From: Bacteroidia bacterium
GTDB lineage: Bacteria > Bacteroidota > Bacteroidia > Cytophagales > Cyclobacteriaceae
NCBI GenBank assembly: GCA_030430675.1
Contig: JAUIKU010000004.1
Coordinates: forward strand, 1 to 57,335
Direction: 5' to 3'
DNA length: 57,335 nucleotides
The notes under the pieces were generated by a model. The model worked only from the letters and a program-made list of their open reading frames with translations. It had not been told where the DNA came from and searched no databases. The position numbers and the translations under genes were made by a program. This document shows positions 7,263 to 36,782 of this stretch, in pieces; positions within the stretch are counted from its first letter, which is position 1; the number at the start of each line of letters is the position of its first letter.

Positions 7263-7268
7263 CCCAGT

Positions 7269-7324: not shown

Positions 7325-7359
7325 TTTTTACTATCTTGCTATGTCTAACCTTTGGTGGC

Positions 7360-8343: not shown

Positions 8344-8349
8344 TTTTAT

Positions 8350-16503: not shown

Positions 16504-18198
16504 CTAGTTTTCCAGTACCTGTTTACCGGCCAGCAGCAATGGCTCTAGTTGTTGGTAGCTTACATCCTGTACAGAACTTTTCTGGTCAATGGCTACACTG
16601 GCGGCGGTAGCGGCAGATTGTCCCAATACCATAAACACCGGTTCCATGCGAATTGAGCCAAATGCAATATGTGAAGCGCTAAGGCATACAGGCACCAGTA
16701 AATTGGTGCACTCCTGACGTTTGGGAGTGATTGACCGGTAACTCACAGGATAAGGGGCCTGGACTTTGGCTTCCACGTTGCCTTCATTCTTAGCCCAGCC
16801 CTCTTCGGAAACATAACGCTGGGTGTTATGGGAATCCATACCATAAGCGCCCATACCGATGGGGTCTGAGGCGACTTCCAGGCCCTCGCAGTGATATTGG
16901 GTCATCACATATTCACCGATCATCCGCCGGGCTTCTCTGATGTAGAGCTGCTGTTGCCAGCCGTCGGCACGGTCAAATTCATCTTTGCAGGTACCCCACC
17001 GGGCTACTTCATTGCGGATGTGGTCCGGTATTCTGGGGTGATTGGCCAGGGTCCACATCAACCCCTGCTGATACTGGCGGTGTTGCTCAATTATTCGCTC
17101 TCTTTCCTGGTAGCTGGCCTCCGGATAATGGTAATTTTGGCCTATAAAATCCGTGGAAAACCCGGTGCGGTTGTTGGTATCGGTTTTGCGATTGGGCATT
17201 TTAGAATTGATCCATGGGAACCCATCTTCTCCGGCCTCATAGTTTCTCAATAACAACTCGTAGTTCAGTTCATTATATCCGGCAGGTTTTTCAAAAGGAA
17301 TGCGATTGTCAGGGTGGTCGGTAAGGCACATCCTGAAGCAATAGGCTTGTACCCGTTTATCTGCGGCCCCGAAATCACCGGGCCCTTCCGGATCAATGTG
17401 GGGAAGTAGACCACTGCCGGGATCTCCGGCTATCACGTATGGATCAACCCCGTCCACTAAGTTGTGATTGACCTGGTTTCGGGAAGGATAGCCGGTCATG
17501 GTAGTATCGGTTAGCCGTGTATGTACCCCATTGAGCGTTTCCCGATAGGTTTCGTTCGACTCTCTGCCTACGGTATAGGAGACCCCGGCTGCCGCCATCA
17601 GGTCACCCTCATAGGTGGCATCTATGAAAACTTTCCCCCGGTAGGTTTCACCTGAAAGCATGGTGATAGCACTGATGTTGGTATCTTCCTTGCTGACACC
17701 TGATGAGCGGTCCAGCTGTTGACCCATTATCAATTCTATGTTGTGTTCCGCTATAAAATCCTGGTAAACTTTAAGTGCCGCTGAAGGCTCGAAGGTCCAC
17801 ATGGCGGCCTCACCGGATTCGGTGCGGGTTTGGCCGCCATCCTGGTAATCCTGTTGAGATTGGAATTTCCAGTGGGCAGGATCATCGTAGTATTCTTTTA
17901 TCCCCTCATAGAATTCCCTGGCGATCCCTCCAATGGCTTGCTTATTGCCGATGTCCGTCTGACCCAATCCACCGGTGGTTAAACCCCCAATGCGCTGTCC
18001 CGGCTCCAGCAAAATCACGGACTTTCCCATGCGACTGGCCTGAATGGCAGCGGCAACCCCTGCCGAGGTGCCTCCATAAATCACCATGTCATAAGTAATA
18101 GTTTTCTGCGTTCCATCGGTGTTGCAACCGACTACTAATGTCAGGCCAATCAGCAGTTTCCAACTTACAAAATCTGTTAAATTAATTTTTCTCATCAT
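16504..18198 (-). CDS. FAD-dependent oxidoreductase, exported lipoprotein
   Basis: 564 residues. A lipobox (LVVGC) is followed by a Rossmann FAD-binding motif, [20 protein letters not shown], with the FAD-ribose acid in VILLE and a glycine-rich [12 protein letters not shown] loop. The C-terminal part has [21 protein letters not shown] and a closing helix GQSAATAAS, as in the PF12831 FAD-oxidoreductase family, whose members often act on sugars or sugar-derived polymers. Being a lipoprotein, it would work outside the cytoplasm, which raises the question of how it acquires FAD. It lies 175 bases downstream of the PQQ-dependent dehydrogenase gene, same direction. Confidence 0.88.
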
Positions 18199-18373
18199 TT
18201 TTTAATATTTCAATTGCGTGCTTCATTCTGACCGGTTAACAGACTGACTCTTGAAGGAGAACACACTGTACAGGAGTATGCTTGAGTTCCCTTCATTCCT
18301 TCTTGAGACAAGCGCGCCAGGGCCGGCAATGAAATGAAAAATCTACTTTTAATCATTCAAAAGGTTTATCCAA

Positions 18374-20518
18374 TCAAGGCAAAGCAAAGGTTACAATGCC
18401 ACTTTTATGATGTTGCAGGTTTTCTCCTACACTCACGGCAATGGCAATGAACTGTCTGCCATTCACTTCATATACTGCCGGGTTGGCCAATCCATTCCCG
18501 GGAAGTTCGGTTTGCCACAGCAGGGCGCCACTCTCTTTGTCAAACACCCGGAATTTACTGTCAAGCGTGGCTGCGATTAGCACCAGACCCCCTGCAGTAA
18601 CTACCGGTCCACCATAGTTTTCCATTCCGGTATCGGGTTCCCCGGGTTGTTGGTACTCGGGATGACTTCCCAGGGGTACTTTCCACAGGAATTCACCATT
18701 GTTCATATCTATGGCATTCAGCGTCCCCCAGGGGGGGCTTATGACCGGCCGCCCCTGATTGTCCAGCATATATCCATGTCCGGTTACATTGAGATAGGTG
18801 GTGGTGGTATCTTCTTCTTGCTCAGCAGTTACCAGTTGATCCTTACCGGTTTCAGTGAGAAAAGCCAGTATTTCTTCCTGGTGCCCCTCCATTACTTTCA
18901 TAAATCCCGGCATGATTCCGGCACCATTGTTCACCCGCTCCAGAATCTGCGGTCCTGTCATGCGTTGATCAATGTCAACCAGAGATGGATTGGACTCGAC
19001 TCCCTGCTTGTCAGCCCCATGGCAACTGACACAATAGGTCATATAAAGTGCTTTGCCGGCCGCGAACAGGGTGCGGTTCTGACTGCTGGCACGGTGTACT
19101 TTTTCCATGCGACCGATTTCCGGTGATTCATTGGAGTTGATATAAATCACCCCGGTCTCAACATCAAACGCAGCACCACCCCATTCGGCACCACCCCGGG
19201 ATCCCGGGATTAGCAGTGTCCCTTGCGTATCAGCTGGCGTGTAGATTCCTTCATGCCATAAGCTCCTTAATAGTTGCTGATTATAAACATAGGCTTCATC
19301 TGTTACTTTATAGAGGTCTTCCTCACTCATAGATTGCCGGGCAAAAGATTCCGGTTTGGTGGGAAAAGGCTGGGTAGGCCATGCTGTTTCACCGGGGACT
19401 TTGGAACCGGGTACCGGCCGCTCTTCCACCGGGAAAACAGGGGTGCCGGTTTCCCGGTCAAGCACAAAAATAAATCCCTGTTTGGTGGGTTGTGCTACGG
19501 CATCAATTTTCTTACCCTGCGATGTGACGGTTATAAGATTGGGCGAAGTCGGCAGATCGTAATCCCAAATGTCGTGGTGTACAGTTTGAAAATGCCAAAT
19601 TCTTTTACCGGTAGTAGCATCCAGTGCGATCAGGCAATTACCAAATAAATTGGCACCCAGCCGGTCCGCCCCGTAATAGTCATACGTGGGTGAGCCCGTG
19701 GGTACATAAACAATGCCTCTTTCCTGGTCCAGGCTCATGCCAGCCCAATTATTGGCGCCACCGGCGTATTTGTAGGCATTTTCAGGCCAGGTTTCATATC
19801 CAAACTCTCCCGGCTCCGGTATGGTGTGAAAGGTCCAGACCAGTGCCCCTGAGAGTACATCATAGGCCCTTACATGGCCGGGAGCGGCCCCCGAAGCTTC
19901 AGAGACGGCAGCGCCCACTATTATCAGATTATTATAGATAATTCCCGGCGTGCTTAATTTCACAGCGCCCGGGGTATCGCGGTGCGGTTGCGGCACATCC
20001 ATATTAATATTTCCCTGATCTCCGAAAGTTGTTACCGCCTTACCGGTCCTGGCGTCTACCGCCCAAAGCTTGTTGCCATGAGTTACAAATATGCGTTTCA
20101 GTCCCTGGCCTTCCCAATAGGTTACTCCCCTTAATACCCCTCCGCCACGCTCGCCCTGCAGAAGGTCGAAGGTCCACAACTGCTCACCATTGGCAGCATC
20201 GACCGCATAAAGCTGTCGCCAGGCAGAAGTGAGGTACATGGTGTCGTTCACTATTATTGGGTTACATTCGTATTTCCAGAATTGAAATCGCTCCGGTTCA
20301 TCTTCCGGATAGAAAGCCCAGGCCTGGGTCAACAGGTGCACATTGGATTTGTTTATCTGATCCAGTGCACTGTAGTTATTGGATTCAGGTCCCCCTTTGT
20401 AAACTTCCCAGGTACGGTAGCGGGTATCACGATCACTGCAAGATGCCAGCCAGAGTGTAATACAAAGGATTGTATAAAGAGAAAAGAATTTGGATGAAAT
20501 GCGGCCTTTTATACTCAT
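18374..20518 (-). CDS. PQQ-dependent quinoprotein dehydrogenase with cytochrome c domain, lipoprotein
   Basis: 714 residues from the ATG at 20516-20518, chosen because it gives a lipoprotein signal (LASC); an upstream ATG adds only a non-signal leader. The protein is an eight-bladed propeller with the characteristic tryptophan-rich repeats (VWTFHTIPEPGEFGYETWPE, KRIWHFQTVHHDIWDYDLP), as in glucose/alcohol quinoprotein dehydrogenases. A c-type heme motif CVSCH sits at 496-500, inserted between propeller blades rather than at the terminus. It would oxidise an alcohol or sugar with PQQ and pass electrons to its own heme. No PQQ synthesis genes are in the window. It is divergent from the DUF1592 gene. 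Confidence 0.9.
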   Translation of the reverse strand: MSIKGRISSKFFSLYTILCITLWLASCSDRDTRYRTWEVYKGGPESNNYSALDQINKSNVHLLTQAWAFYPEDEPERFQFWKYECNPIIVNDTMYLTSAWRQLYAVDAANGEQLWTFDLLQGERGGGVLRGVTYWEGQGLKRIFVTHGNKLWAVDARTGKAVTTFGDQGNINMDVPQPHRDTPGAVKLSTPGIIYNNLIIVGAAVSEASGAAPGHVRAYDVLSGALVWTFHTIPEPGEFGYETWPENAYKYAGGANNWAGMSLDQERGIVYVPTGSPTYDYYGADRLGANLFGNCLIALDATTGKRIWHFQTVHHDIWDYDLPTSPNLITVTSQGKKIDAVAQPTKQGFIFVLDRETGTPVFPVEERPVPGSKVPGETAWPTQPFPTKPESFARQSMSEEDLYKVTDEAYVYNQQLLRSLWHEGIYTPADTQGTLLIPGSRGGAEWGGAAFDVETGVIYINSNESPEIGRMEKVHRASSQNRTLFAAGKALYMTYCVSCHGADKQGVESNPSLVDIDQRMTGPQILERVNNGAGIMPGFMKVMEGHQEEILAFLTETGKDQLVTAEQEEDTTTTYLNVTGHGYMLDNQGRPVISPPWGTLNAIDMNNGEFLWKVPLGSHPEYQQPGEPDTGMENYGGPVVTAGGLVLIAATLDSKFRVFDKESGALLWQTELPGNGLANPAVYEVNGRQFIAIAVSVGENLQHHKSGIVTFALP

Positions 20519-20592
20519 ACGCCTGTTATCAGTAAATAGCCGGTGATCCCGCCCAATATAATGCATAATTCATAGCTGATAATTTACAACCA

Positions 20593-20611
20593 ATGAAAAA
20601 GTTATTTTCAT
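20593..20611. promoter_or_regulatory. Perfect inverted repeat between divergent dehydrogenase and DUF1592 genes
   Basis: Arms ATGAAAA (20593-20599) and TTTTCAT (20605-20611) flank a 5-base spacer. The right arm lies about 20 bases before a -7-like TAAATTTA (20629-20636) for the DUF1592 gene, where a -33 element would sit. It is a plausible shared operator, but the AT-rich arms weaken the case. Confidence 0.4.
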
Positions 20612-20665
20612 CAAATCTTGATTTTTTGTAAATTTAACACAGGAAAGGGGTAATTTAATCCATAT

Positions 20666-22645
20666 ATGAGCAATTCAGTTAAGTCTTTGGTTTTCTATGT
20701 GCTAGCTATGCTGTCTTTAACGTCAGTACTTGCTCAGGTGGATGATCCCAGACAGAAGCACTATCAGCGAAATGTGCGACCCATTTTTATGGAGCACTGT
20801 TACCCCTGTCACAATGGAGAGGACAAAAAAGCAGGGATCGATTTTGACAACTATTTTTTTATCAGTTCCATCGTGCGCCGCGGAGAACTATTTCAGGAAA
20901 TCGTCCATCAGGTTGAAAACCGCACCATGCCCCCTGAAATGAAGACCCCACTGACACAGAATGAAATAGATACAGTTACCTATTATATCAACAGTTACCT
21001 TCGTGCCGCTCTGGATGAGAAAGACCCCGGTTTGATACCCCCGCGGCGTTTAAGTAACCAGGAGTACAAATATGTAATCTCCGACCTGCTCGGTTTGGAG
21101 GTTGATGTAGATGAGATCTTTCCCTCGGATCCGTCGGGGGGAGAGGGGTTTGACAACCAGGCGTCGGTACTTTACATGTCGCCGCTGTTGATCGAACGAT
21201 ATTTCGAGACGGCAGACGATCTTATCGATAAGTTGTATTCACAACCGAAAGCCTGGCGAAATTTGGTGCCAAAATACCGAAAGAGCCTGTGGACATCCAT
21301 TAAAGTACTGTGGTACAAGGTTTTTTATAATCGCGATATTTCGCTGGAAAGACCGGTGAGAATGGCATCTGAAGTCCTGGTTCCATTTGCCACTTTGGCT
21401 TACAGGGGGTTTATTGAACCTGAAGAAAAAACCAGGCTGCTGGACTTTTTTGAGCAGACGTATGTGGAATTTTCGGATCGGTCAGACCGCTATGATGCCA
21501 GCATAAAGGAAACCATGAAACTGGTATTGATGTCACACAGTTTCTTGTACCGGATAGAAAGCGATCCCGATATAGAGGGTCCGTATAGGGTTACCAATAA
21601 GGAACTGGCTTCGCGCCTTTCTTTCTTCCTGTGGTCCAGCATTCCCGATCAGCAGTTATTGCACACCGCATACAAGGAAGACCTGCATGATCCGGAAGTA
21701 ATGGCTCGTGAGGTACGGCGCATGCTCAAGGACCCCAGATCAAAACGTATTGGTCAACAATTTGCCATTCAGTGGCTTGAGCTGAAGAAACTAAAGGATC
21801 CCGCTTTTCAGGTTGACCTGGAGACCTTTCCCGAATACAATACCGAACTAAGTGGGGCAATGCTAAAGGAGGTAGAGCTGTTTTTTAACCACGTGCTGCT
21901 GGAAAGTAAAAACATGTTGGAGCTAATAGACAGCGACTACAGCTATTTAAATGAAACATTGGCCAGGCATTATGGCATTCAGGGAGTGGAAGGCTCACAA
22001 ATGCGCAAAGTAGCTTTCACTTCAGGGGAACGGGGAGGAATTTTGGGTATGGCCGGAGTATTGACCGCCACATCACTGCCGAACCGCACCAGCCCGGTGC
22101 TTCGAGGCAAGTGGGTATTGGAGCAGGTACTGGGTACACCACCACCACCTCCGCCGCCGGATGTACCGGAACTGGAAGTAGCGCATGATTCGGAGGAATC
22201 CATAGAGACCCTGAGAGCTATATTGGAGCGGCATAGGGAAGATCCCAGCTGCCATAGCTGCCACCAGGCCATGGACCCCATTGGTTTGGGGTTGGAAAAC
22301 TTCGATGCTATTGGTCGTTGGCGTACCGCCTATGGCACGGAGCAAATAGATGCTTCGGGAGTGCTGGAGTCAGGGGAGCAATTTGCGGGACCGGCAGAGC
22401 TTCGTAAGATTCTGGTGGGAAAGCAGGAATTATTTGCCAAAACACTGAGCAAAAAGATGCTTTCATTTGCCTTGGGGCGGTCGTTACAATTCAAAGACAC
22501 TCCCACAATTGAGCAATTGCAAAAGAGTTTGCTGGAAACGGGCTTTGACAGTGAACAATTTATCATTGAAATAACCAATAGTTATCCTTTCAGGTATAAA
22601 AAGAGCGACACCAAGGACGTTCCCCCCAAACGTGTAGCGGGTTGA
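20666..22645 (+). CDS. DUF1592-type multi-domain cytochrome c protein (PSCyt1/DUF1587/DUF1595/DUF1592/DUF1588/DUF1585)
   Basis: 659 residues with a signal peptide ending LAQ. An N-terminal cytochrome-like domain has CYPCH at 45-49; next come RRLSNQEYKYVISDLLGL (DUF1587), ASRLSFFLWSSIPDQQLL (DUF1592), a proline run before DVPEL with a second heme-like motif CHSCH at 529-533 (DUF1588), and KKMLSFALGRSL (DUF1585). This architecture is abundant in planctomycetes and some Bacteroidota, next to DUF1552 proteins, as here. Function is unproven; the heme motifs point to electron transfer in an extracytoplasmic oxidation. It is the first gene of a two-gene unit, divergent from the PQQ-dependent dehydrogenase. 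Confidence 0.92.
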   Translation: MSNSVKSLVFYVLAMLSLTSVLAQVDDPRQKHYQRNVRPIFMEHCYPCHNGEDKKAGIDFDNYFFISSIVRRGELFQEIVHQVENRTMPPEMKTPLTQNEIDTVTYYINSYLRAALDEKDPGLIPPRRLSNQEYKYVISDLLGLEVDVDEIFPSDPSGGEGFDNQASVLYMSPLLIERYFETADDLIDKLYSQPKAWRNLVPKYRKSLWTSIKVLWYKVFYNRDISLERPVRMASEVLVPFATLAYRGFIEPEEKTRLLDFFEQTYVEFSDRSDRYDASIKETMKLVLMSHSFLYRIESDPDIEGPYRVTNKELASRLSFFLWSSIPDQQLLHTAYKEDLHDPEVMAREVRRMLKDPRSKRIGQQFAIQWLELKKLKDPAFQVDLETFPEYNTELSGAMLKEVELFFNHVLLESKNMLELIDSDYSYLNETLARHYGIQGVEGSQMRKVAFTSGERGGILGMAGVLTATSLPNRTSPVLRGKWVLEQVLGTPPPPPPPDVPELEVAHDSEESIETLRAILERHREDPSCHSCHQAMDPIGLGLENFDAIGRWRTAYGTEQIDASGVLESGEQFAGPAELRKILVGKQELFAKTLSKKMLSFALGRSLQFKDTPTIEQLQKSLLETGFDSEQFIIEITNSYPFRYKKSDTKDVPPKRVAG

Positions 22646-22705
22646 ACACGGCGCAATGTTATGCTAAAAGGTTGATAATTAGGAAAATATGAACTATTAT
22701 TAATT

Positions 22706-24088
22706 ATGGAAAAGAAATGGGCAATACCTCGTCGTAGAATGCTAAAAGGCATGGGCGCATGTATAGCGCTTCCTATGCTGGAAGCCATGGTTCCTTCCAG
22801 TATTCTGGCCAGTCCACAGGCGAACGCTCCCAAGCGAGTGGTATTCATGTTCTCACCTAATGGGGTATGTCCTGGAAAATGGTCACCCAAAGGAGTAGGC
22901 AGCGATTTTGAGTTATCACCTATATTGAAGCCGCTGGAATCTCACAAGAATGACTTGCTGGTATTGCAGCAGTTGATGAACAAGGCATCTACTCTGGGAG
23001 TAGAGGGACATTATACCAAGACTGGAAATTTCCTTTCCTCCATGGAGGTCGCCAGGACCATAGGGGCCAACATAAATGTAGGGGGACCCTCAATTGATCA
23101 GCAGATTGCCAAGCAAGTCGGGTCGCAAACCATTATTCCTTCACTGGTATATGGGGTGGATCAGATGAAGAGTGGTGTGTGTACCAGTACCGGTATCACC
23201 CGGCTCTATGGATCTTACATATCCTGGGAAACTGCCACCAAACCTTCGGCCAAGGAGATCAATCCCAGATTTGCCTTTGACCGTATGTTCAGGTCGGTGG
23301 TACCCAAGAAGGATGCCAAGCCTGAAAATCCGTTAAAAGGCAGTATTCTGGACGCAGTTATGCAGGATGCGAAGTCATTGCAAAAGAATCTGGGTATTGC
23401 CGATCAAAACAAGCTGGAAGAATACCTGGCCTCCATCAGGTCAGTAGAGATGAGGTTGGACAATAAAGTACAAATGAAGGATTTTGAAGCCGGGATTAGT
23501 CCCAGTATAAAAAAAGAACTTCAGCGTTTGGATGTGGAGATAGATGAGTTTATCGATCTGGAGGCCGGACTGGATATTACGGAAAAGATAAGACTTATGC
23601 TGGATATTATGACCCTGGCACTGTGGAGTGATGCTAGCAGGGTGGGTACTTTTATGTTTGGCAATGCTGGCAGTAACAGGAATTTTTCCTTTATCGACGG
23701 GGTAAGAGACAGCTTTCATTCCGTTTCACACCATCAAAATGACGAAAGGCGTATGCTGCAGTACCAGCTTATCAATACCTGGCACATGGAGCAACTGGCA
23801 TACTTCCTGGACAAATTGAAAGCTATTCCGGAAGGGGACGGCAATTTGCTTGACAATTCCATGGTGATGTATGGTTCGGGGCTTCGCGACGGCAACCGGC
23901 ATGCGGAAGAGAACCTGCCTATATTATTGGCTGGCAGAGGGGGCGGCTCCCTGAAGCCCGGACGCAACCTTATTTTTAAGGAAGAGACCCCATTGGCCAA
24001 CCTGTATCAGACCATGGCTCAGGTGATGGGTGTGGATGCTAATGGTTTCGCCGATGGCACCGGAACCCTGACAGAAATATACGGTTAA
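22706..24088 (+). CDS. DUF1552 protein, probable Tat substrate
   Basis: 460 residues. The N-terminus carries a twin-arginine-like motif in PRRRMLKGMGACIALPML, suggesting folded export, perhaps with a bound cofactor. The body matches DUF1552: KRVVFMFSPNGVCPGKW, FELSPILKPLESHKNDLLVL, GNFLSSMEVARTIGANI, SIDQQIAKQVG, and near the end YGSGLRDGNRHAEENLPILLAGRG, resembling metal-site regions of sulfatase/alkaline phosphatase relatives (DUF1501-like). It follows the DUF1592 gene by 60 bases; in other genomes the pair is nearly always adjacent, so they probably form one complex. Enzymatic activity is unknown. Confidence 0.92.
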   Translation: MEKKWAIPRRRMLKGMGACIALPMLEAMVPSSILASPQANAPKRVVFMFSPNGVCPGKWSPKGVGSDFELSPILKPLESHKNDLLVLQQLMNKASTLGVEGHYTKTGNFLSSMEVARTIGANINVGGPSIDQQIAKQVGSQTIIPSLVYGVDQMKSGVCTSTGITRLYGSYISWETATKPSAKEINPRFAFDRMFRSVVPKKDAKPENPLKGSILDAVMQDAKSLQKNLGIADQNKLEEYLASIRSVEMRLDNKVQMKDFEAGISPSIKKELQRLDVEIDEFIDLEAGLDITEKIRLMLDIMTLALWSDASRVGTFMFGNAGSNRNFSFIDGVRDSFHSVSHHQNDERRMLQYQLINTWHMEQLAYFLDKLKAIPEGDGNLLDNSMVMYGSGLRDGNRHAEENLPILLAGRGGGSLKPGRNLIFKEETPLANLYQTMAQVMGVDANGFADGTGTLTEIYG

Positions 24089-24102
24089 CCGTTTGTGAGT
24101 AT

Positions 24103-25212: not shown

Positions 25213-25411
25213 GGCTGGTTGGTTTAAGTAAGAAGAGAACTTCGAATCCTGGCAGGACCCAGGTTTAGGTAGCATTAAAGAATTTCAAATCCAAGAATTT
25301 TTAGCGATTTTCATCGTTATCCAACTGGTGTTTAAAATGGTTTGGTGGTTATGTTCCCGGCCTCTTTCCGAATTGAACTACAAAAAGTAATTTTAGCCAG
25401 AGACTTGAAAG

Positions 25412-26122: not shown

Positions 26123-26224
26123 GGTAACGGTCAAAAGCTGGATCAAAGACCGCCAATTTTAGGGGAAACAAGTGTTAAGGTATTCCCATTGAACTAAAAT
26201 TTCAATTTGCCTTGAAAATAGCAA

Positions 26225-26254
26225 TTGTCATTGCCCCTGAAATTGTTAAATTAG
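26225..26254 (+). promoter_or_regulatory. Candidate promoter of the six-gene oxidation operon
   Basis: TTG (26225-26227), a 19-base spacer and TAAATTAG (26247-26254) resemble the Bacteroidota TTG / TAnnTTTG promoter with one mismatch in the -7 element. It would place the start about 25 bases before the dehydratase ATG at 26284. Confidence 0.4.
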
Positions 26255-26283
26255 CCGATCTGTAGTATCAATCTAAACCAAAT

Positions 26284-28002: not shown

Positions 28003-28025
28003 ATAAAGTCAAAAATCAAAAATAT

Positions 28026-29321
28026 ATGCATAACCTATTTAATATCAGTGTATTAACCTTTCTGGTATTTGCTTCTTGCCAACCTGCTGCCGAAGAATCT
28101 GATCAAGATGTCTCAGAGGTGCCGATGTTTGTAAATGATGGTGCCCTGGAATTATCCGAGGGATTTGCGGCTACTGTGGTGGCCGACAGCACCGTGAAAA
28201 ATGCCCGGCATATCGTGGTGAATGACAATGGAGATATTTATCTAAAGGTACGATCTGGAGATTATGGGGTGTTGGCGCTGAGGGATACAACTGGTGACGG
28301 CAAGGTAGATATGAAGGCAGCATTCAGTACGGTAAATGGAACGGGTATTGATATTTACAACGGCTATCTTTACGCTTCTTCAAGGTCTGAAGTTTTCCGG
28401 TTTAAGCTGAAGGAGGGAAGTTTACTGCCCGATACCACTGCCGAAACCATAGTGACCGGATTTCCGGATCAGACTGCCCATGCGGCCAAGTCCTTCACGT
28501 TTGACCAGTCAGGTAATATTTATGTAAATGTGGGGGGGCCTTCCAATGCCTGTATGGAGCAAAACCGCACCGCCGGGTCCAAAGGTGTAGACCCTTGTCC
28601 CCAACTGGAATGGCAGGGCGGGATATGGCAGTTCAAGGCAGACCAGCCGGGACAGTCACAACAGGAAGACGGTTACAAGTATTGCACCGGTACCAGGAAC
28701 TGTGTGGCGATGGACTGGAACCATCAAATAAACAGTTTGTTTGCCCTGACCCATGGCCGGGACCAGCTTAGTTCCTTTTGGCCGGAGTACTTCGATGATA
28801 AGCAAAGCGCCGAGCTTCCGGCTGAAGAATTCTTTCAGATTGATGACGGCGATGATTTTGGCTGGCCCTATTGCTACTTCGATGGATTTAAGAACACCAA
28901 GGTGCTGGCTCCTGAGTATGGTGGCAATGGAGAGGAGATCGGACGATGTGCGGATAAAAAGGATCCAATAATAGGTTTCCCCGCACACTATGCGCCTAAT
29001 GACCTGGTCTTTTACCAGGGCGACCAGTTTCCGGAAAGGTATAAGAATGGCGCATTTATCACCTTCCACGGGTCCTGGAACCGAGCTCCTGAACCTCAGG
29101 CGGGTTATCTGGTAGCTTTTGTTCCCTTTCAAAATGGCGTGCCCAGCGGTGACTGGGAAGTATTTGCCAACGGGTTTGCGGGGGTGGATAAGGTAGCAGG
29201 ACCAGGAGATGCACAGCACCGGCCCATGGGATTGGCTGAAGGACCGGATGGATCGCTCTATATTACGGATTCGGTAAAAGGAAAGATCTGGCGCATCACC
29301 TATAACGGTGAATCAATATAA
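28026..29321 (+). CDS. PQQ-dependent sorbosone-dehydrogenase-like lipoprotein
   Basis: 431 residues. A lipobox (FASC) is followed by a six-bladed propeller of the soluble quinoprotein glucose/sorbosone dehydrogenase type: GFAATVVADSTVKNARHIVV, NGDIYLKVRSG, a catalytic-type histidine region QTAHAAKSF, DDGDDFGWPYCYFDG, FPAHYAPNDLVFYQGDQFPE, ITFHGSWNR and GPDGSLYITDSVKGKIWRI. Several cysteines (for example around GSKGVDPCPQL and CTGTRNC) probably form disulfides. It would oxidise an aldose outside the cytoplasm and hand electrons to the small cytochrome c encoded 23 bases downstream. Substrate not determinable. Confidence 0.9.
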   Translation: MHNLFNISVLTFLVFASCQPAAEESDQDVSEVPMFVNDGALELSEGFAATVVADSTVKNARHIVVNDNGDIYLKVRSGDYGVLALRDTTGDGKVDMKAAFSTVNGTGIDIYNGYLYASSRSEVFRFKLKEGSLLPDTTAETIVTGFPDQTAHAAKSFTFDQSGNIYVNVGGPSNACMEQNRTAGSKGVDPCPQLEWQGGIWQFKADQPGQSQQEDGYKYCTGTRNCVAMDWNHQINSLFALTHGRDQLSSFWPEYFDDKQSAELPAEEFFQIDDGDDFGWPYCYFDGFKNTKVLAPEYGGNGEEIGRCADKKDPIIGFPAHYAPNDLVFYQGDQFPERYKNGAFITFHGSWNRAPEPQAGYLVAFVPFQNGVPSGDWEVFANGFAGVDKVAGPGDAQHRPMGLAEGPDGSLYITDSVKGKIWRITYNGESI

Positions 29322-29344
29322 ACTAGGTAAAACGCAACTAACAA

Positions 29345-29806
29345 ATGAAATTACAAATTATCGGAGTATTCTTGCTGCTGGCCGCTTGTGGTGGCGGACA
29401 GGAAAACAATCAGGAAAAAGATGCTGCCCCTCAATCCATGGTGCAGCCAGACACAGAAACACCGGAAGCTACGGTAGTGGTCAATGAAGCGGGAAAGAAA
29501 GTGTACGATCAGTACTGCCTGGTGTGTCACCAGGCGGATGGTCAGGGTGTACCGAATGCATTTCCTCCTCTTACTCAGACCGAGTATGTAAATGGCGATA
29601 CCGATCGGCTAATTGGTATTGTATTGAACGGATTAACCGGTGAAATTGAGGTTAAGGGAGAAGTATACAATGGAGTGATGGTGGCTCATAATTTTCTCAG
29701 TGATCAGGAGGTGGCCGATGTGCTTACTTATGTGAGGGGCAGTTTCGGTAATGATGCGGCGGCAGTATCTGCTGAGCAGGTGGCGACGGTGAGAGCCAAT
29801 CAGTAG
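29345..29806 (+). CDS. Small c-type cytochrome lipoprotein
   Basis: 153 residues. Lipobox LAAC, an acidic linker, then one class I cytochrome c domain with heme motif CLVCH at 58-62, GQGVPNAFPPL as in cytochrome c oxidase-associated monohemes, and a likely axial methionine in NGVMVAH followed by the closing helix QEVADVLTYVRG. It is the natural electron acceptor for the preceding quinoprotein dehydrogenase and sits 17 bases before a TonB-dependent receptor gene in the same operon. Confidence 0.93.
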   Translation: MKLQIIGVFLLLAACGGGQENNQEKDAAPQSMVQPDTETPEATVVVNEAGKKVYDQYCLVCHQADGQGVPNAFPPLTQTEYVNGDTDRLIGIVLNGLTGEIEVKGEVYNGVMVAHNFLSDQEVADVLTYVRGSFGNDAAAVSAEQVATVRANQ

Positions 29807-29823
29807 TTAAGTTACTGACAAAC

Positions 29824-32100
29824 GTGCTGAAAACAGCAGTACATATTCTGGTAGTCCTATTGGTAACAACACCGGTAGTGGCACAGCAGGTTACGGGCAG
29901 GGTGCTCGATGCTGTCAACAACGAACCGCTGGTTGGCGCTAATTTGTCGGATTCCACCAGGACCAAGGGCACTACTACCGATGACCTGGGCCATTTTAGC
30001 TGGGACATAGCGGCCAATGGCAGCACTATTTATGTGAACCATCTGGGCTATCAGGAATTGAAAATAACCGTTACCGGTGACAAACGAAGTTTGCGCATTC
30101 TGATGCCGGCTACGGCCCACCAACTCCCTCAGATGATTGTGTCAGCTTCCAACACTTCTTCAAAATTGTTGGAAATCCCCTATTCGGTTTCTGTAATTTC
30201 CAGAAATGAGATAGAAAGAGATAATGGCACCAACATTGCCGATCCCATTAACCGGATCCCCGGCCTATATATGCATTCAGGAACCTTGAATACCAACCGG
30301 ATCACTGTTCGCGGTATCGGCTCCAGATCTCTTTTTAGTACCACCAAGATACGGGCCTATATCAATGAAATTCCCCTAACCACCGGCGATGGTGAAACCA
30401 CAGTAGAAGACATTGATTTGAGTTTGGTGGAACGGGTTGAAGTACTGAAAGGCCCGGCATCTTCCATTTACGGGGCCGGTCTGGGTGGGACCGTTAATCT
30501 GAAAGCACTTAAAGCCCCCTATAATGCCACAGATATTTCCAGTGAATTGACCTTCGGGTCATACGGGCTCTTCCGGAGTGTCAACGGCTTTGAACACAGT
30601 ACGGATGCGGTCAACTTACGGGTGAATTACAGTACCATAAACCAGGATAGTTACCGGGAAAATAATGAGTACGACCGCAAAACCATCAATGTGCTGAATC
30701 AGATATATCCCGGCGAGAACACTACGGTTACCTTCTGGGGAAGCTGGATTAACCTGCTGGCATTTATACCGTCTTCACTGGACAGTGCCGCCTTTGCCGA
30801 GAATCCCCGTCAGGCGGCTTTTACCTGGGGCCAGACCATGGGATTTGAAGATTATAACAAGGGGTTGGCGGGTGCCAATTTGTCAACCAGTTTTTCCAAC
30901 CAATGGGAACTGAGTGCCAGTCTGTTTGGAAGCTTACGGGATTCTTATGAATTAAGACCGTTCAACATCCTGGAGGAAGAAACAGGATCTGTGGGCAGCA
31001 GGTTGAAATTCACGTTCAATCCGGAAATAAAAACGGGCAACCTGGTGTGGACTTTTGGAGGGGAGTACTTTAATGAAAACTACCAATGGCAAACTTTGGA
31101 AAACCAGGATCGTGAGCCAGGCATGCTGCTAAGCGACAACGATGAACGACGGTGGTATTACAATGCTTTTACCGAGGTGAGCTGGACACTGCCCAAGGGT
31201 ACCATATTTTCCGCAGGCCTTAACCTGAATAACACCCAATACCGGTACCGGGATTTAATGACGGACAATGGGGATCAATCCGGTAATTATTCTTTTGATA
31301 CCCAGTGGTCCCCGCGGTTGGCGGTGCTTCATAATTTTTCTGATCGCATGGCGGTTTATGGCCAGCTTAGTCACGGGTTTTCACCCCCAACCCTGGCGGA
31401 AACATTAACTCCTGATGGAGTAATCAATCCCGATATACAACCCGAAACGGGATATAATCTGGAATTTGGTACTCGGGGACAATTTAAAGGCACCCGGTTG
31501 AATTACGATGTTTCCATTTATTCCATGTATATAGAAAACCTGCTGGTAGCCCGACGTGTGGGAGACGATCAGTTCGTGGGAGTAAATGCCGGAAAAACCA
31601 GGCATCGCGGGATTGATCTCAGTCTTAGTTATGATGTTCTGGCGGAATCGGTGAAGTCAGACTTGCATGCCTGGCTGACTTACGGATATGCCGACTACTT
31701 TTTTAAGGAATTCATCGATTTGGACAATGACTACTCCGGCAATGAGCTGACCGGAACACCCAGGCACAAACTAAACTGGGGACTGGATTTTACCCATGAT
31801 ACGGGTCTATATGGCAATCTTACATTTTTGTATGTATCTTCTATGCCAATGAGAGATGATAACACGGCTTTCTCGGAAGCGTACGCTCTGATGAATATTA
31901 AGATGGGTTATCAGAAACAGTTATCAAGGTTGTTGGGAGTCAAAGTTTTTGCTGCCGTAAACAATATTTGGGATGAATCATATGCCTCAATGATCAGCGT
32001 AAATGCCGCCTCGTTTGGTGGCAGCCTGCCCCGGTATTATTATCCGGGGTTGCCCCGGAATTACTATGGAGGATTTAGCGTTAATGTCAGGATCAGATAA
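29824..32100 (+). CDS. TonB-dependent receptor without a SusD partner
   Basis: 758 residues with a GTG start (29824), signal peptide ending VAQ, a carboxypeptidase-regulatory-like domain (about 22-95, with NNEPLVGANLSD), a plug (about 110-215, with RITVRGIGSRSLFSTTKIRAYI and VEVLKGPASSIYGAGLGGTVNL) and a beta-barrel with an FSPPTLAETLTPDG-type region and C-terminal VNVRIR. The plug resembles classic siderophore/cobalamin/PQQ-type receptors rather than SusC. Sitting between a quinoprotein dehydrogenase with its cytochrome and a giant heme protein, it may import the oxidation substrate, its product or PQQ itself; the sequence cannot decide. Its last 17 bases overlap the next gene. Confidence 0.92.
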   Translation: MLKTAVHILVVLLVTTPVVAQQVTGRVLDAVNNEPLVGANLSDSTRTKGTTTDDLGHFSWDIAANGSTIYVNHLGYQELKITVTGDKRSLRILMPATAHQLPQMIVSASNTSSKLLEIPYSVSVISRNEIERDNGTNIADPINRIPGLYMHSGTLNTNRITVRGIGSRSLFSTTKIRAYINEIPLTTGDGETTVEDIDLSLVERVEVLKGPASSIYGAGLGGTVNLKALKAPYNATDISSELTFGSYGLFRSVNGFEHSTDAVNLRVNYSTINQDSYRENNEYDRKTINVLNQIYPGENTTVTFWGSWINLLAFIPSSLDSAAFAENPRQAAFTWGQTMGFEDYNKGLAGANLSTSFSNQWELSASLFGSLRDSYELRPFNILEEETGSVGSRLKFTFNPEIKTGNLVWTFGGEYFNENYQWQTLENQDREPGMLLSDNDERRWYYNAFTEVSWTLPKGTIFSAGLNLNNTQYRYRDLMTDNGDQSGNYSFDTQWSPRLAVLHNFSDRMAVYGQLSHGFSPPTLAETLTPDGVINPDIQPETGYNLEFGTRGQFKGTRLNYDVSIYSMYIENLLVARRVGDDQFVGVNAGKTRHRGIDLSLSYDVLAESVKSDLHAWLTYGYADYFFKEFIDLDNDYSGNELTGTPRHKLNWGLDFTHDTGLYGNLTFLYVSSMPMRDDNTAFSEAYALMNIKMGYQKQLSRLLGVKVFAAVNNIWDESYASMISVNAASFGGSLPRYYYPGLPRNYYGGFSVNVRIR

Positions 32101-35100
32101 AAATAGTTGCCCCAGGAAATTATTATTGACCTTCTGCGGTCAACTACTACTTGTTGGTTCATTCATGGGGTGTCAGCCTTCGCAGGTCGACCAGGTAGAG
32201 TCGGACCCTGAGCAATTCGCCAAACACATCAGAACCACCGAGGCACAAAGCCCCCAGCAGCAATTGCATTCGTTCAAGCTTCCAGAAGGTTTCAGCATAG
32301 AATTATTTGCCTCGGAACCCGACATCGGAAAACCAATGAACATCAGTTTCGATGCCCGGGGCCGGCTATGGGTAACACAATCACAGGAATATCCTCTGTT
32401 TGATTCTTTGCGGGTGGGGCAGGACAAGATCACCATACTGGAAGATACCGATGCAGACGGCAAGGCCGATAATTTCATCACCTTTGCTGACTCGCTGGAT
32501 ATACCCATAGGCATTGTGCCGGTTCCGGATGGTGCCATAGCCTATAGCATACCTTATGTTTACCACCTGGTGGATAAGAATGCCGATGACGTGGTGGACC
32601 ATAGGGAGGTGTTGTTAAGTGGCTTCCAGTACAAGGATACACACGGAATGATCAATAATTTTTTCAGGGGGCTGGATGGATGGATACATGCCGACCACGG
32701 GTTTGCCAACGTATCCAAGGTAGTCGGGACGGACAACCGGGCACCGGTAGTGATGAACTCCGGTAATACTTTTCGTTTCCGGCCTGATGGCACCGGTGTA
32801 GAGTTTACCACTACCGGGAGGGTGAACCCCTTTGGATATGCCATGGATGAGTTTGGTTACATGTATTCTGTTGATTGTCATTCAAGTCCTGTGTATCAGT
32901 TGATAAGGGGAGCAGATTATCCGCATTTTGGTAAGCAGCCAACCGGCATTGGATTCGGCCCTGCCATGATGCCGCACAACTACGGATCGACGGCGCTTGC
33001 TGGCCTGGAGTATTATACCGGAGACCAGTTTCCGAACGACTATCAGCAGAATTTTTATCTGGGTGATGTAGTGAAGAGCCGGGTTTACCGGGCCTCATTC
33101 GATATGCAGGGCAGTACTCCGGTATTAAACTGGGAACCTGATTTTATAGTAAGCAGTGATCCCTGGTTCCGCCCCGTGGATGTTAAACTGGGTCCGGACG
33201 GCGCTTTGTACATCGCCGATTTTTACAATCGAATTATTGGACACTATGAGGTTCCTTTGGACCACCCCGGAAGGGACCGTGAAAGGGGAAGAATATGGCG
33301 TATAACCTTTGACGCCAACCGCCGGAATCACCGGCCTCAAAATTGGCAGCAGGCCCAGGTGAAGGAACTAATAGCGGGATTAAACGATCCAGGTCTGAAC
33401 GTCCGCATGATGGTGGCTGATCAAATTGTTGACCGCCTGGGAGCACAAGCCGCTACCCCGGTACTTGCCATGATGGATGACCCCCAAACTTCACCGGAAG
33501 CCTACATTCATGGTTTATGGATTCTTTACCGGCTCCAACAAATTGACCAGAAGATCGTTGACAATGCCTTGTCGCATTCCAGTGAAAAAGTACGGGTACA
33601 TATGTTGCGCATAATGTTTGAGCAGGAGGACCTGGATGCCAGACAGCTTGACCGGGTGATGGAGTTGTTGGCACATGAAAGTCCACATATTCAAAGACAG
33701 GCGGTTATGATTTTGGCCAAGTATCCTTCGAATGACCGGTTGATTGCCTTACTGGAGGCAAAACACGAGGTGCCGGAAGAAGATACCCATCTGGCATACT
33801 CACTGAAACAGGCAGTGAGAGACAATTTGCGAAATCAACAGGTATTGGCATGGACCTTAGAAAGAGATTGGGATGAACGGAACATCAAGGAACTGGCCCA
33901 GGCAATGATGGGTGTGGAAGATCCGCTGTCAGGGAAGTTCCTGGTGGAGAATCTGGAGATTTTCCAGTCAGATCACTCCCTGATGGTGAAATATGTGAAT
34001 CACGCTACCAGGCAGGTGCCGGCGGCTGAGATCAGTTCGTTGGAATCAAAGTTAAGACGATTGGCAGGCAACGATATTGGCTTGCAATTCAGCTTTATTC
34101 AGTCGTTTCAAAGAGGTCTTTCCCAGAGAGGTGCCCCGGCAGATCAAAGCAAGGACTGGGCTGTAACGCTGGCCTCTGATATCGTAAACAGCCCGGACCG
34201 ATCCAACGGCTGGAAGGTAATTCCCATCAGGGACTATTATCAGTCCAATCCCTGGAGATATCAACAGCTGGCAGCAAGGGAAAACTTTCCCCAACAAACC
34301 GTGCTGATCAGTGGTCCCACAGAAGCCAGAGGGATAGCCTTAAGTCAATTGCGATCTCCGGAGTTTAAACTGCCCGCTCAACTGGAGTTCACCATTTATG
34401 GTAGTATGGAAAAAACCCTGGAAGAACACCAGTCACTGACACCTACCAATTGGATCGAAATTTACCTGGCAGGGTCGGAATCACCTGTAACCAGACACCA
34501 GATCAAGTCAGTGGAAGAACGGGCGAATATCAGCTGGGATCTGAGTGCGCATGCAGGCAAGATGGGATATTTGGTGCTTAATGACGGATCCAATGACTGG
34601 AACGAATATATCGGTGTAACCAGCGAAGATCCTGCTTTTCCCAGGCTTCCGGAACTAAGTCTTAGTGACATCGCAGCGCAGCATATCTTTGCCTGCGATG
34701 TAGCCGCGACCTATAAGTTGAAGTCTTTAATTCCCGGTTTAAGGCAAATGTTAAATGACCCTCAATATGATGCGCTCTCCCGGGTTAAGGCCGGTGAAGC
34801 ACTAATGATATTATCTGCGGACAATTTTCAGGAAGTGGCGGCCGTGGTGCGGGATACCGCCGAGTTGACGGTGGTAAAAGACAGACTACTGACCATGTTA
34901 GTGGACCAGGGGACCACAAATGCCTACCAGCTTGCGGAGCAACAATTGACTGCCCTGTCATTCAATACCCAAAAACAGGTGGTAATGTCAATGGCTAACC
35001 AGACCAATGGCATCCCCCGGGTGTTAACGGCAGCACAGTCGATGACCATCTCTCCCAAAATGCTGCTGGAACCCAGTATTAAAACCGCTTTACAGGACAA

Positions 35101-35620
35101 CATGGATGAACAGCAATCATTGCTATACCAAAAAATAACGGCAGATCTCACTCCGTTTTCAGAGGAGACCCAGAAGTTAATAGATGATCGCATTTCCGGT
35201 TATACCACAGCCTCAAAATCATTAAATGCAGGGGCTGAAGCCTTTAGCAAGTATTGCGCCAGTTGTCATCAGGTCGGTGGATCCGGGGGCAATATAGGGC
35301 CGCAGCTGGATGGAATCGGAAACAGGGGGGTAATAGCACTGACAGAAAAGATTCTCGACCCCAACAGGAGCATTTCCAAGTCATTCGTCAACTATGCTGT
35401 CAGCTTAAAGGATGGTAGCGAAAGACAGGGGTTGTATCGCCGGGATGAAGGTAATCTTAAGGTATTTGCAGATTTAAGTGGCCAGGAATTCTCCATTCCA
35501 TCGGATGAGATCCAGTCACAGACAGCTTTGCCCTATACCCTGATGCCCGATAACTTTTCAAATACAATTTCCGAATCGGAATATTATCATTTGGTATATT
35601 ATCTGTTACAGCAAAAATGA
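32084..35620 (+). CDS. Second giant propeller/HEAT/cytochrome c lipoprotein (PVC-type heme-binding)
   Basis: 1178 residues from the ATG at 32084, which has a GGAGGA Shine-Dalgarno at 32068-32073 and gives a lipobox (FMGC); earlier in-frame starts lack a signal. Domains: propeller (about 70-420, with FDARGRLWVTQSQEYPL, NPFGYAMDEFGYMYSVDCHS and LGPDGALYIADFYNRIIGHYE), HEAT-like helices (about 430-640), a beta-rich insert (about 760-860) absent from the paralogue at 9063, further helices, and a cytochrome c with CASCH at 1058-1062. Ca2+-like loops DTDADGKAD and a following DKNADDVVD are present. It should oxidise a substrate and pass electrons to its heme. The ORF overlaps the receptor gene by 17 bases. 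Confidence 0.88.
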   Translation: MSGSDKNSCPRKLLLTFCGQLLLVGSFMGCQPSQVDQVESDPEQFAKHIRTTEAQSPQQQLHSFKLPEGFSIELFASEPDIGKPMNISFDARGRLWVTQSQEYPLFDSLRVGQDKITILEDTDADGKADNFITFADSLDIPIGIVPVPDGAIAYSIPYVYHLVDKNADDVVDHREVLLSGFQYKDTHGMINNFFRGLDGWIHADHGFANVSKVVGTDNRAPVVMNSGNTFRFRPDGTGVEFTTTGRVNPFGYAMDEFGYMYSVDCHSSPVYQLIRGADYPHFGKQPTGIGFGPAMMPHNYGSTALAGLEYYTGDQFPNDYQQNFYLGDVVKSRVYRASFDMQGSTPVLNWEPDFIVSSDPWFRPVDVKLGPDGALYIADFYNRIIGHYEVPLDHPGRDRERGRIWRITFDANRRNHRPQNWQQAQVKELIAGLNDPGLNVRMMVADQIVDRLGAQAATPVLAMMDDPQTSPEAYIHGLWILYRLQQIDQKIVDNALSHSSEKVRVHMLRIMFEQEDLDARQLDRVMELLAHESPHIQRQAVMILAKYPSNDRLIALLEAKHEVPEEDTHLAYSLKQAVRDNLRNQQVLAWTLERDWDERNIKELAQAMMGVEDPLSGKFLVENLEIFQSDHSLMVKYVNHATRQVPAAEISSLESKLRRLAGNDIGLQFSFIQSFQRGLSQRGAPADQSKDWAVTLASDIVNSPDRSNGWKVIPIRDYYQSNPWRYQQLAARENFPQQTVLISGPTEARGIALSQLRSPEFKLPAQLEFTIYGSMEKTLEEHQSLTPTNWIEIYLAGSESPVTRHQIKSVEERANISWDLSAHAGKMGYLVLNDGSNDWNEYIGVTSEDPAFPRLPELSLSDIAAQHIFACDVAATYKLKSLIPGLRQMLNDPQYDALSRVKAGEALMILSADNFQEVAAVVRDTAELTVVKDRLLTMLVDQGTTNAYQLAEQQLTALSFNTQKQVVMSMANQTNGIPRVLTAAQSMTISPKMLLEPSIKTALQDNMDEQQSLLYQKITADLTPFSEETQKLIDDRISGYTTASKSLNAGAEAFSKYCASCHQVGGSGGNIGPQLDGIGNRGVIALTEKILDPNRSISKSFVNYAVSLKDGSERQGLYRRDEGNLKVFADLSGQEFSIPSDEIQSQTALPYTLMPDNFSNTISESEYYHLVYYLLQQK

Positions 35621-35624
35621 TCGG

Positions 35625-36782
35625 ATGATGTATAGAACAATAATTCGAATGGCCCTGCTGCTAATCACCACGGACATAGCGGCCCAATCTGCAACGGTCA
35701 ACTTTAGAAAGCACGTGATCCATGGGGATTTTATTTCGGAGGGAGTGGCGGTGGCAGATGTCAACAATGACGGACTTACCGACATACTGGCCGGTGCATA
35801 TTGGTTTCAGGCCCCTGACTGGCAGGTGCACCAGTTGACAAACTCGGTTACCTATGATCACACCAGTGAGTGGAGTGATTCATTTTTGAATTTTGCGTCT
35901 GATGTCGATCAGGATGGTTGGACAGATCTCATTGTATTTGATTTTCCGGGAACCGAGGTTAACTGGTTTAAAAACCCCGGTAAAACCGGTGCATTTTGGA
36001 AAAAATTTCTGATTGACAGTACTGCCAGAAATGAATCTCCAATGATGATCGACCTGGATGGAGATGATCACACCGATCTGGTATTTGGCACCGGAAATGA
36101 TCAGATGACCTGGTTTGAAGGGGAACCGACCGGCAGCCAGGGGATAATCTGGAAGAAAGTAGCCATCAGTACCGAAAAGGCCCCGGGAAGTTCCACATTT
36201 TCTCACGGTTTGGGTTATGACGACATGGATGGTGACGGAAGAAAAGATATCATCACTACTGGTGGCTGGTGGCAGGCCCCAGTTGCCGCTGCTACGGATC
36301 CCTGGACCCTCAACGAGACCGGATTAGGACAGCCCTGCTCACAGATGTACCTCTTTGACCTCGACCACGACGGGGACCAGGACCTGTTAAGCGCCTCAGC
36401 CCATAACTATGGCATCTGGTGGCATGAACAACTGGAAAGTAGCAATGGAGGTGTTTTTAAGGAGCACCTGATCGACAGTTCATTTTCACAGACCCATGGA
36501 TTGGCGCTGATAGACCTCAATGGCGATGGATTGCCGGATTTTATTACCGGAAAGCGCTATTTTGCCCATAATGGAAAAGATCCCGGCGGTCATGAACCTG
36601 CGGTGTTGTACTGGTACGAAATGAGAAGAGACCGGCAGCAACGCCCCTCATGGGTGCCGCACCTGATCGATAATAACAGCGGTGTAGGGTTGCAGGTAGT
36701 GGTAGAAGACATCACAGGTGACCAAAAAAGCGATATTGTTATCGCCAATAAAAAAGGGGTATTTCTGTTTGAATCTTACTGA
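35625..36782 (+). CDS. FG-GAP/VCBS-repeat secreted protein
   Basis: 385 residues with a signal peptide ending AAQ. At least six FG-GAP repeats with Ca2+ loops are visible: DVNNDGLTD, DVDQDGWTD, DLDGDDHTD, DMDGDGRKD, DLDHDGDQD and DLNGDGLPD, giving a beta-propeller. Such proteins are usually adhesive or structural, but comparable proteins accompany the heme/propeller proteins in planctomycetes and Bacteroidota, suggesting a subunit role. It starts four bases after the giant heme gene and ends the operon, followed by a terminator at 36784. Confidence 0.88.
   Translation: MMYRTIIRMALLLITTDIAAQSATVNFRKHVIHGDFISEGVAVADVNNDGLTDILAGAYWFQAPDWQVHQLTNSVTYDHTSEWSDSFLNFASDVDQDGWTDLIVFDFPGTEVNWFKNPGKTGAFWKKFLIDSTARNESPMMIDLDGDDHTDLVFGTGNDQMTWFEGEPTGSQGIIWKKVAISTEKAPGSSTFSHGLGYDDMDGDGRKDIITTGGWWQAPVAAATDPWTLNETGLGQPCSQMYLFDLDHDGDQDLLSASAHNYGIWWHEQLESSNGGVFKEHLIDSSFSQTHGLALIDLNGDGLPDFITGKRYFAHNGKDPGGHEPAVLYWYEMRRDRQQRPSWVPHLIDNNSGVGLQVVVEDITGDQKSDIVIANKKGVFLFESY

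Follow-up and report, generated by a model that had tools for sequence, protein, structure and literature searches.

A PqqU-like TonB receptor in a putative sugar dehydrogenase operon, and an adjoining DUF1592/DUF1552 haem module, in a Cyclobacteriaceae bacterium

Peripheral oxidation of glucose to gluconate is carried out by Pseudomonas and acetic acid bacteria. Gcd of Escherichia coli and the quinohaemoprotein alcohol dehydrogenases, both dependent on pyrroloquinoline quinone (PQQ), are built with either a membrane domain or a haem at the C terminus. The E. coli TonB receptor PqqU (YncD) has a published signature of an aromatic residue at position 99 (Y/F/W99) and two arginines, R304 and R365; the parts of PMC12124388 drawn on here also report that a considerable fraction of modelled PqqU homologues carry Glu at 274, with metal co-transport proposed, that a change to Glu at this position inactivated the E. 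coli protein, and that no PQQ synthesis genes were present in 206 PqqU-bearing Bacteroidota. In planctomycete-type gene sets, PSCyt2 and PSCyt3 genes usually adjoin one of two unknown families, and genes of this sort are described as having no known function in the consulted sections of PMC5615132. Here, we analyze a stretch of 57,335 nucleotides (contig JAUIKU010000004.1, assembly GCA_030430675.1; ‘the window’) from the 4.96-Mb genome of a Bacteroidia bacterium of the family Cyclobacteriaceae, in which a PqqU-like receptor lies inside an operon for a PQQ-sugar-dehydrogenase-like (GSDH) protein, next to a quinohaemoprotein and a DUF1592/DUF1552 gene pair. Within the library searched, no study of this gene set was found.

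The locus can be rationalized into two modules. Module 2 is an operon of six plus-strand genes (26284-36782) encoding, in order, a dehydratase, the GSDH lipoprotein, a small cytochrome c, the TonB receptor, a giant DUF7133 protein, and an FG-GAP protein, which overlap once and are otherwise separated by 23, 23, 17, and 4 bases. Module 1, upstream of it, consists of the quinohaemoprotein gene on the minus strand and the DUF1592-DUF1552 pair on the plus strand, divergent and 99 bases apart. The best reading of the locus is that sugars are oxidized to sugar acids in the periplasm by PQQ-dependent enzymes. In its full form, which we regard as evenly poised between right and wrong, two linked, separable envelope modules would oxidize sugars with PQQ imported by the operon’s own receptor. 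The GSDH lipoprotein, probably PQQ-dependent, would oxidize an aldose in the envelope and pass its electrons through the small cytochrome c to the respiratory chain; the sugar acid produced would enter the cell, where the IlvD/EDD dehydratase would start its catabolism by forming a 2-keto-3-deoxy sugar acid. The TonB receptor would import PQQ, perhaps with its metal, for both the GSDH protein and the neighboring quinohaemoprotein. The latter, with the DUF1592/DUF1552 pair, may perform another oxidation in the envelope, within the same metabolism of sugars or sugar acids; DUF1592 would be its dihaem electron carrier and DUF1552 a partner exported by the Tat route that perhaps holds a metal site. 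The gene families, the gene order, the lack of PqqE matches above cut-off, the family of the receptor, its co-occurrence with quinoproteins, and the sugar-acid neighborhood are results of the computation; all substrates, the routes of the electrons, PQQ as ligand of the receptor, and the parts played by the giant and the FG-GAP protein are inferred from them. A preliminary description of this DNA, made from its letters and open reading frames, had proposed an extracytoplasmic oxidation island; domain models, CxxCH motifs, and coordinates bear out every gene it named, and its extracytoplasmic oxidation role agrees with the best reading given here; the operon and the neighboring module cohere within the genus.

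In the PDB, the receptor matched 6v81 (YncD) best, at 3.6e-42, then 9c4o, at 1.2e-41, an entry named ‘Pyrroloquinoline quinone transporter’; CntO followed at 4e-18, a lead of 24 orders of magnitude for the PqqU structures. The PqqU model NF041535 was the top TonB model listed (197.9 bits), yet this score is below the curated cut-off of 1200. Conversely, E. coli PqqU used as a query against the window genome recovered the window receptor first (1.2e-42; runner-up 7.0e-10), at 26% identity. A pocket alignment of 59 rows, grouped by score, contains a near group of 17 members. At position 99, the window receptor has an aromatic residue (F171), as do 17/17 of the near group; at the R304 position, it has R372, with arginine in 15/17; and Glu occupies position 274 in 17/17. 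A more distant receptor group is without both signature arginines, and the complete signature was found, besides E. coli, only in G046 (59 rows). The receptor is thus best described as PqqU-like, with two of the three signature residues, and binding and import of PQQ are predicted from this sequence relationship. A certified PqqU identity was rejected on the missing R365. A role as sugar or polymer receptor is disfavored by the finding that the PQQ importer is its closest relative among solved structures. No match was found in viral contigs.

The distribution of the receptor family points in the same direction. With cut-offs set post hoc (receptor, E < 1e-50; GSDH, E < 1e-80, or quinohaemoprotein, E < 1e-60), a quinoprotein was present in 30/38 genomes with the receptor family vs. 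1/21 without it (Fisher 2.7e-8, uncorrected for kinship of the genomes). Two control receptors from the same genome behaved differently: the first showed no association (15/29 vs. 16/30, p = 1.0), and the second an association in the opposite direction (15/37 vs. 16/22, p = 0.03). The co-occurrence held at receptor cut-offs of 1e-30 (p = 1.4e-5) and 1e-60 (p = 2.1e-5), as well as when the genus was left out and genome size restricted to 3.5-6.5 Mb (16/23 vs. 1/13, p = 4e-4). The near group alone gave 12/17 vs. 1/21 for genomes without the family, and 7/12 vs. 1/21 with the genus excluded. The window genome itself contains eight quinohaemoprotein matches at seven places and six GSDH matches. 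The host cell apparently does not make PQQ: the search for PqqE returned radical SAM matches in 55/59 genomes, all below the PqqE cut-off.

Among the remaining operon genes, the dehydratase is called ‘sugar-acid type’ because of its family model scores and PDB ranking. It scored 919 bits against NF004784 (cut-off 539) and also exceeded the cut-off of NF009560, both named dihydroxy-acid dehydratase; it was slightly below the equivalog cut-off for L-arabinonate dehydratase (NF009559, 841.6 bits vs. 882) and well below that of the ilvD equivalog (TIGR00110, 468.1 bits vs. 618.15). In the PDB, its second-ranking matches were 5j83 and 9evv (792-795 bits; 9evv is labelled L-arabinonate dehydratase), galactonate dehydratase scored 509 bits, and solved canonical dihydroxy-acid dehydratases at most 319 bits. 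An ordinary IlvD is therefore disfavored, as the ilvD equivalog is below cut-off and the solved canonical enzymes are far weaker matches. The GSDH lipoprotein was below the cut-off of TIGR02604 (56.9 bits vs. 122.2). A HGSWN-type motif was seen in 19/30 GSDH loci, but some of the 11 misses are possibly wrong frames, and the motif was not used; none was found in the giant, from which no conclusion on the giant as a PQQ enzyme is drawn.

The quinohaemoprotein of module 1 matches the PF01011 propeller at 640.7 bits (cut-off 26.7) and contains a single CVSCH motif at residue 512, flanked by two propeller stretches. It keeps the E. coli Gcd positions R266, W404, T424, D466, K493, and D730, and R266, W404, D466, K493, and D730 are kept in 11/11 rows of an alignment of the window protein, Gcd, and nine relatives; the H262 position is Gly in the window protein. 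The equivalents of Gcd D466 and K493, which we take to be the catalytic Asp and Lys, are D335 and K362, the same in all 11 rows, and a single CxxCH recurs at a comparable internal position in all ten rows other than Gcd. Against TIGR03074 (membrane glucose/quinate/shikimate dehydrogenase), the protein scored 447.4 bits, below the cut-off of 832.65. An Asp two residues after the catalytic Asp is a lanthanide mark in quinoproteins; the extra Asp of the window protein was dropped as such a mark, since E. coli Gcd has the same DxD.

The DUF1592/DUF1552 pair was followed through genomes by a DUF1552 alignment scan, and the counts of its context refer to the best 80 of 189 loci. DUF1592 was recognized in 65/80 of these and a DUF2231-PSCyt1 haem gene in 47/80, one of the latter (L311) being a short match located far off in an acidobacterium; the pair occurs in Bacteroidota, Verrucomicrobiota, Armatimonadota, Acidobacteriota, and Planctomycetota. 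The window clade of DUF1552 (five tree rows) is monophyletic (100/100), and its four loci (L235-L238) include the DUF2231-PSCyt1 gene in 0/4, with L235 and L237 shortened by contig ends. Sugar-acid genes lie near the pair in 4/4 window-clade contexts vs. 0/76 other loci (E 1e-8), short-chain dehydrogenases, which matched four of the other 76, being excluded from the count. In the window genus, the dehydratase is co-directional with the pair and, in G002, ~150 bases from DUF1552; a GntP permease is directly downstream and co-directional in L237; L238 has altronate/galactarate dehydratase, GntP, and UxuA at ~4-8 kb, and L236 a PfkB kinase and 2-keto-3-deoxy-6-phosphogluconate aldolase at ~4.5-6 kb, in both loci on the other strand. 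The preliminary description had left the substrate as a polyol, a sugar, or a sugar-derived polymer: these neighbors and the dehydratase favor a sugar or sugar acid, and nothing was found for a polyol or polymer.

The normal arrangement of the pair, with the DUF2231-PSCyt1 membrane haem gene, is seen at L177 (G000:C356), L217, L218, L219, L221, and most Bacteroidota loci; in the Saprospiraceae/Bacteroidia loci L260, L262, and L267, this gene is upstream of the pair. In Cyclobacterium (L244, L245, L248, L249, L284), a quinohaemoprotein homologue lies ~1.6 kb past the triad on the other strand, giving the pair a second association with quinoproteins.

In the DUF1592 protein, the two CxxCH motifs are at residues 45 and 529; each of their four cysteines is conserved in 50/51 rows, and M88 in 51/51. 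Its AlphaFold model (mean pLDDT 88.4) had no PDB match with E < 0.001 (best Z 5.8 over 95 residues), by which a new fold is not shown, and its N-terminal part gave weak structural matches to cytochrome c6. Sequence searches of the PDB with DUF1592 and DUF1552 returned chance-level matches only. For the DUF1552 model (pLDDT 82.9), the best Foldseek match was a choline sulfatase (9.6e-05), and comparison with 7cba by VIA-align gave Z 17.4 and a root-mean-square deviation of 3.5 over 247 aligned residues, from which an alkaline-phosphatase-superfamily fold is predicted. All 66 rows of an alignment share residues N52, D131, D309, H338, S341, H342, H343, and H399, which are candidates for a metal site or a nucleophile, and DUF1552 may be a catalyst. 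It is conceivable, if unlikely, that DUF1592/DUF1552 is a new haem-linked sugar or sugar-acid oxidoreductase, in which DUF1552 would provide the metal chemistry and DUF1592, as a dihaem helical protein, take the electrons, with the window clade, which lost or never had the DUF2231-PSCyt1 protein, using the quinohaemoprotein instead.

Table 1. Features of the two modules and their neighbors in the window.
Feature	Position	Strand	Remarks
FAD_oxidored lipoprotein	16504-18198	-	E 9.3e-118
Quinohaemoprotein (PQQ) dehydrogenase lipoprotein	18374-20566	-	PF01011 E 3.4e-192; haem domain within propeller
DUF1587/1595/1592/1588/1585 dihaem protein (PSCyt1 + PSCyt3 type)	20666-22645	+	Six PSD/PSCyt models above cut-off
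DUF1552 (HXXSHH) Tat-type protein	22706-24088	+	E 9.4e-90; twin arginine at residues 9-10
NHL/ScyE-like lipoprotein	24103-25275	-	Not listed in the preliminary description
SIMPL (DUF541) protein	25412-26122	+	Not listed in the preliminary description
IlvD/EDD-family dehydratase, inferred sugar-acid type	26284-28002	+	Operon gene 1; no signal peptide seen
GSDH/PQQ-sugar-dehydrogenase-like lipoprotein	28026-29321	+	PF07995 39.2 bits vs. cut-off 25
Cytochrome c lipoprotein	29345-29806	+	Adjoins GSDH in many genomes
TonB-dependent receptor, PqqU/YncD family	29824-32100	+	
DUF7133 propeller + HEAT + TIGR02603 haem lipoprotein (giant)	32084-35620, start uncertain	+	One CxxCH
FG-GAP repeat protein	35625-36782	+	Final conserved operon gene; not listed in the preliminary description

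Gene order was surveyed in 30 genomes by tblastn of 20 window proteins against the DNA flanking the receptor, at most 20 kb per stretch. The operon order is the same in 4/5 genomes of the genus (G000-G003, G000 being the window genome), retained at 58-96% protein identity, with FG-GAP truncated at the contig end in G001 and G002; the fifth (G004) is represented by a 4.2-kb contig with receptor and giant only, too short to show the full operon. Module 1 stands beside the operon in three of them (G000, G001, G002). In G002, this linkage depends on a dehydratase gene that is split between two contigs: the operon contig begins at dehydratase residue 283, and the second contig reads dehydratase (residues 1-109) < DUF1552 < DUF1592 < quinohaemoprotein > AIM24 > esterase. 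G003 and G004, whose assemblies are 94 and 87% complete, possess no more than a distant copy of DUF1592 (52 and 51%). Outside the genus, the GSDH-cytochrome-receptor order recurs in G020, and in G051, from another family, GSDH and a receptor of the family are adjacent and divergent. Thus, the island divides into two separable modules, and their linkage is a property of the genus.

The preliminary description had envisaged one coordinated system, with conservation of the whole island across Bacteroidota as a check, and this view did not survive. DUF1552 is present in 8/241 genomes sampled from the order (E 1e-25), GSDH in 33/59 (E 1e-30), and the PQQ dehydrogenase in 27/59 (E 1e-60); the parts of the island thus spread independently, a pattern that the description itself had named as contradicting its proposal. 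Moreover, no homologue of the FAD oxidoreductase, which it had counted as a member, or of the NHL protein was found at E 1e-3 on the G001 and G002 contigs that correspond to the locus, so that a single system over the whole 20 kb is rejected, and the FAD_oxidored lipoprotein is probably outside the island. The SIMPL protein has the same place in G001 and was not seen in G002 or G003. In G001, a gene identified by eye as aminotransferase-like occupies the place of the window’s NHL gene; a gene of this kind, upstream of the dehydratase on the opposite strand, was observed in G001 and G003 (L065 10474-11808 and L063 1-1327) and not in the window.

Several observations weigh against PQQ-fed sugar oxidation. 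At the R365 position, the window receptor has W422, and the near group has arginine in 0/17 and tryptophan in 12/17. Beyond G020 and G051, the sampled receptors from outside the genus are without GSDH, quinohaemoprotein, or other operon genes in the stretches read, and 5/17 near-group genomes are without a quinoprotein at the thresholds used. PqqE over cut-off was found in 0/59 genomes, the window’s own included, and likewise in 0/14 control genomes, so the search has no positive control; PqqC was found in 0/19 genomes, with controls also negative, and 15 further genomes gave none over cut-off and one below, which is not evidence of absence. The match of the GSDH protein to solved PQQ enzymes is weak (6e-05 to 6jt5, an extracellular PQQ-dependent sugar dehydrogenase that we take to be a fungal AA12 enzyme), and the top PDB match of the dehydratase (8ej0, 882 bits) is labelled dihydroxyacid dehydratase. 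The sugar-acid genes of L236 and L238 are distant (~4-8 kb) and on the opposite strand, the sugar-acid categories were picked post hoc, and four contexts are few. Finally, the scan of window proteins revealed none for the uptake of sugar acids.

These points lend themselves to different explanations. The receptor might carry another ligand unrelated to PQQ, such as a metal complex or a sugar-derived molecule, making this a sugar-oxidation operon with a substrate receptor. The absence of R365 throughout the near group and of both arginines in the distant one, the receptor’s occurrence mostly as a lone gene, and the five near-group genomes without quinoproteins would all fit; we consider it a somewhat unlikely explanation, however, because the nearest solved relatives are PqqU, far ahead of other TonB receptors, Glu at 274 is a common published PqqU variant, and neither control receptor shows the quinoprotein co-occurrence. 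That a genome rich in quinoproteins and cytochromes merely collects unrelated envelope genes in these 20 kb is improbable: the many PQQ-dehydrogenase and GSDH matches in the genome, another giant of the same kind at 9063-12449, the non-conserved FAD and NHL genes, and the independently distributed parts would fit, but the genus retains the order with operon-like spacing over considerable sequence divergence, and the GSDH linkage reappears in G020 and G051. Least probable, to the point of being remote, is that the haem and quinoprotein set donates electrons to copper-dependent lytic polysaccharide monooxygenases (LPMOs) or acts on polymers rather than free sugars. It would be consistent with the nearest solved GSDH relative being an extracellular sugar dehydrogenase and with Cbp2D of Cellvibrio, a protein with DUF1587 whose X183 haem domain can give electrons to LPMOs (PMC8981238, in the portion available). 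On the other side, an LPMO model is absent from the Pfam matches of the 30 scanned window proteins, a part of the open reading frames, the operon dehydratase has no signal peptide, and a GSDH-cytochrome protein of Teredinibacter is reported not to pass electrons to LPMO (cited in the available portion of PMC12055684). Sugar oxidation with imported PQQ is the preferred reading.

Other features of these families deserve mention. The giant exceeds the cut-offs of both TIGR02604 (234 bits vs. 122.2) and TIGR02603 (90.6 bits). Its first ATG (32003) is inside the receptor gene, and three homologues from the genus have nothing that matches its initial residues, so that translation probably begins downstream, near 32084; ~140 extra residues within 732-885 are also missing from these homologues. 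A second set at window positions 3487-12449 includes a TonB receptor (3487-5877), a DUF7133-HEAT-haem giant (9063-12449), and sub-cut-off weak matches to 3-keto-disaccharide hydrolase (8350-9063) and JmjC (7336-8343). In other genomes, L079 (G046:C63) is a receptor from the same taxonomic order that has the full published PqqU signature and is 34% identical to the E. coli protein, L075 (G011:C6) is a window-group receptor with an azurin-like gene, recognized by eye, nearby on the opposite strand, and L152 (G024:C20) is a YncD-like receptor apparently split into two frames (422 + 344 aa), possibly a decaying gene; its genome has no match to GSDH or the quinohaemoprotein.

If the preferred reading is right, the operon links the scavenging of a cofactor to a single metabolic purpose in bacteria that have no recognized PQQ synthesis; should the DUF1592/DUF1552 pair be the new oxidoreductase considered above, an orphan pair seen in five phyla would gain a function. 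The operon also suggests a ligand that can be tested directly for receptors that depart from the published PqqU signature, and the sugar-acid neighborhood is a substrate lead for the widespread pair.

Compared with the systems described at the outset, the locus is ordinary in kind, namely peripheral sugar oxidation by quinoproteins, and unusual in having a PqqU-like receptor inside a dehydrogenase operon and an orphan DUF1592/DUF1552 pair tied to sugar-acid metabolism. The receptor shares with PqqU/YncD of E. coli the family, the aromatic residue at 99, and Arg 304, and has the Glu 274 of many published homologues, in a host that is also without PqqE over cut-off (PMC12124388, as far as drawn on here); it differs in its Trp for R365, its 26% identity, and its place in an operon with GSDH. 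The quinohaemoprotein has the propeller and the catalytic Asp and Lys positions of Gcd and the quinohaemoprotein alcohol dehydrogenases, unlike which it is a lipoprotein with the haem inside the propeller and His262 not kept. The planctomycete-type PSCyt3/PSD genes, in the account given in the consulted sections of PMC5615132, have the same domains as the DUF1592/DUF1552 pair, whereas the window clade is without the DUF2231-PSCyt1 gene usual in most other Bacteroidota loci and adjoins sugar-acid genes. As in peripheral glucose oxidation, an envelope quinoprotein would yield a sugar acid that is then catabolised; what distinguishes the window set is an apparently scavenged cofactor, the GSDH and cytochrome c pair, the DUF7133 giant, and DUF1592/DUF1552.

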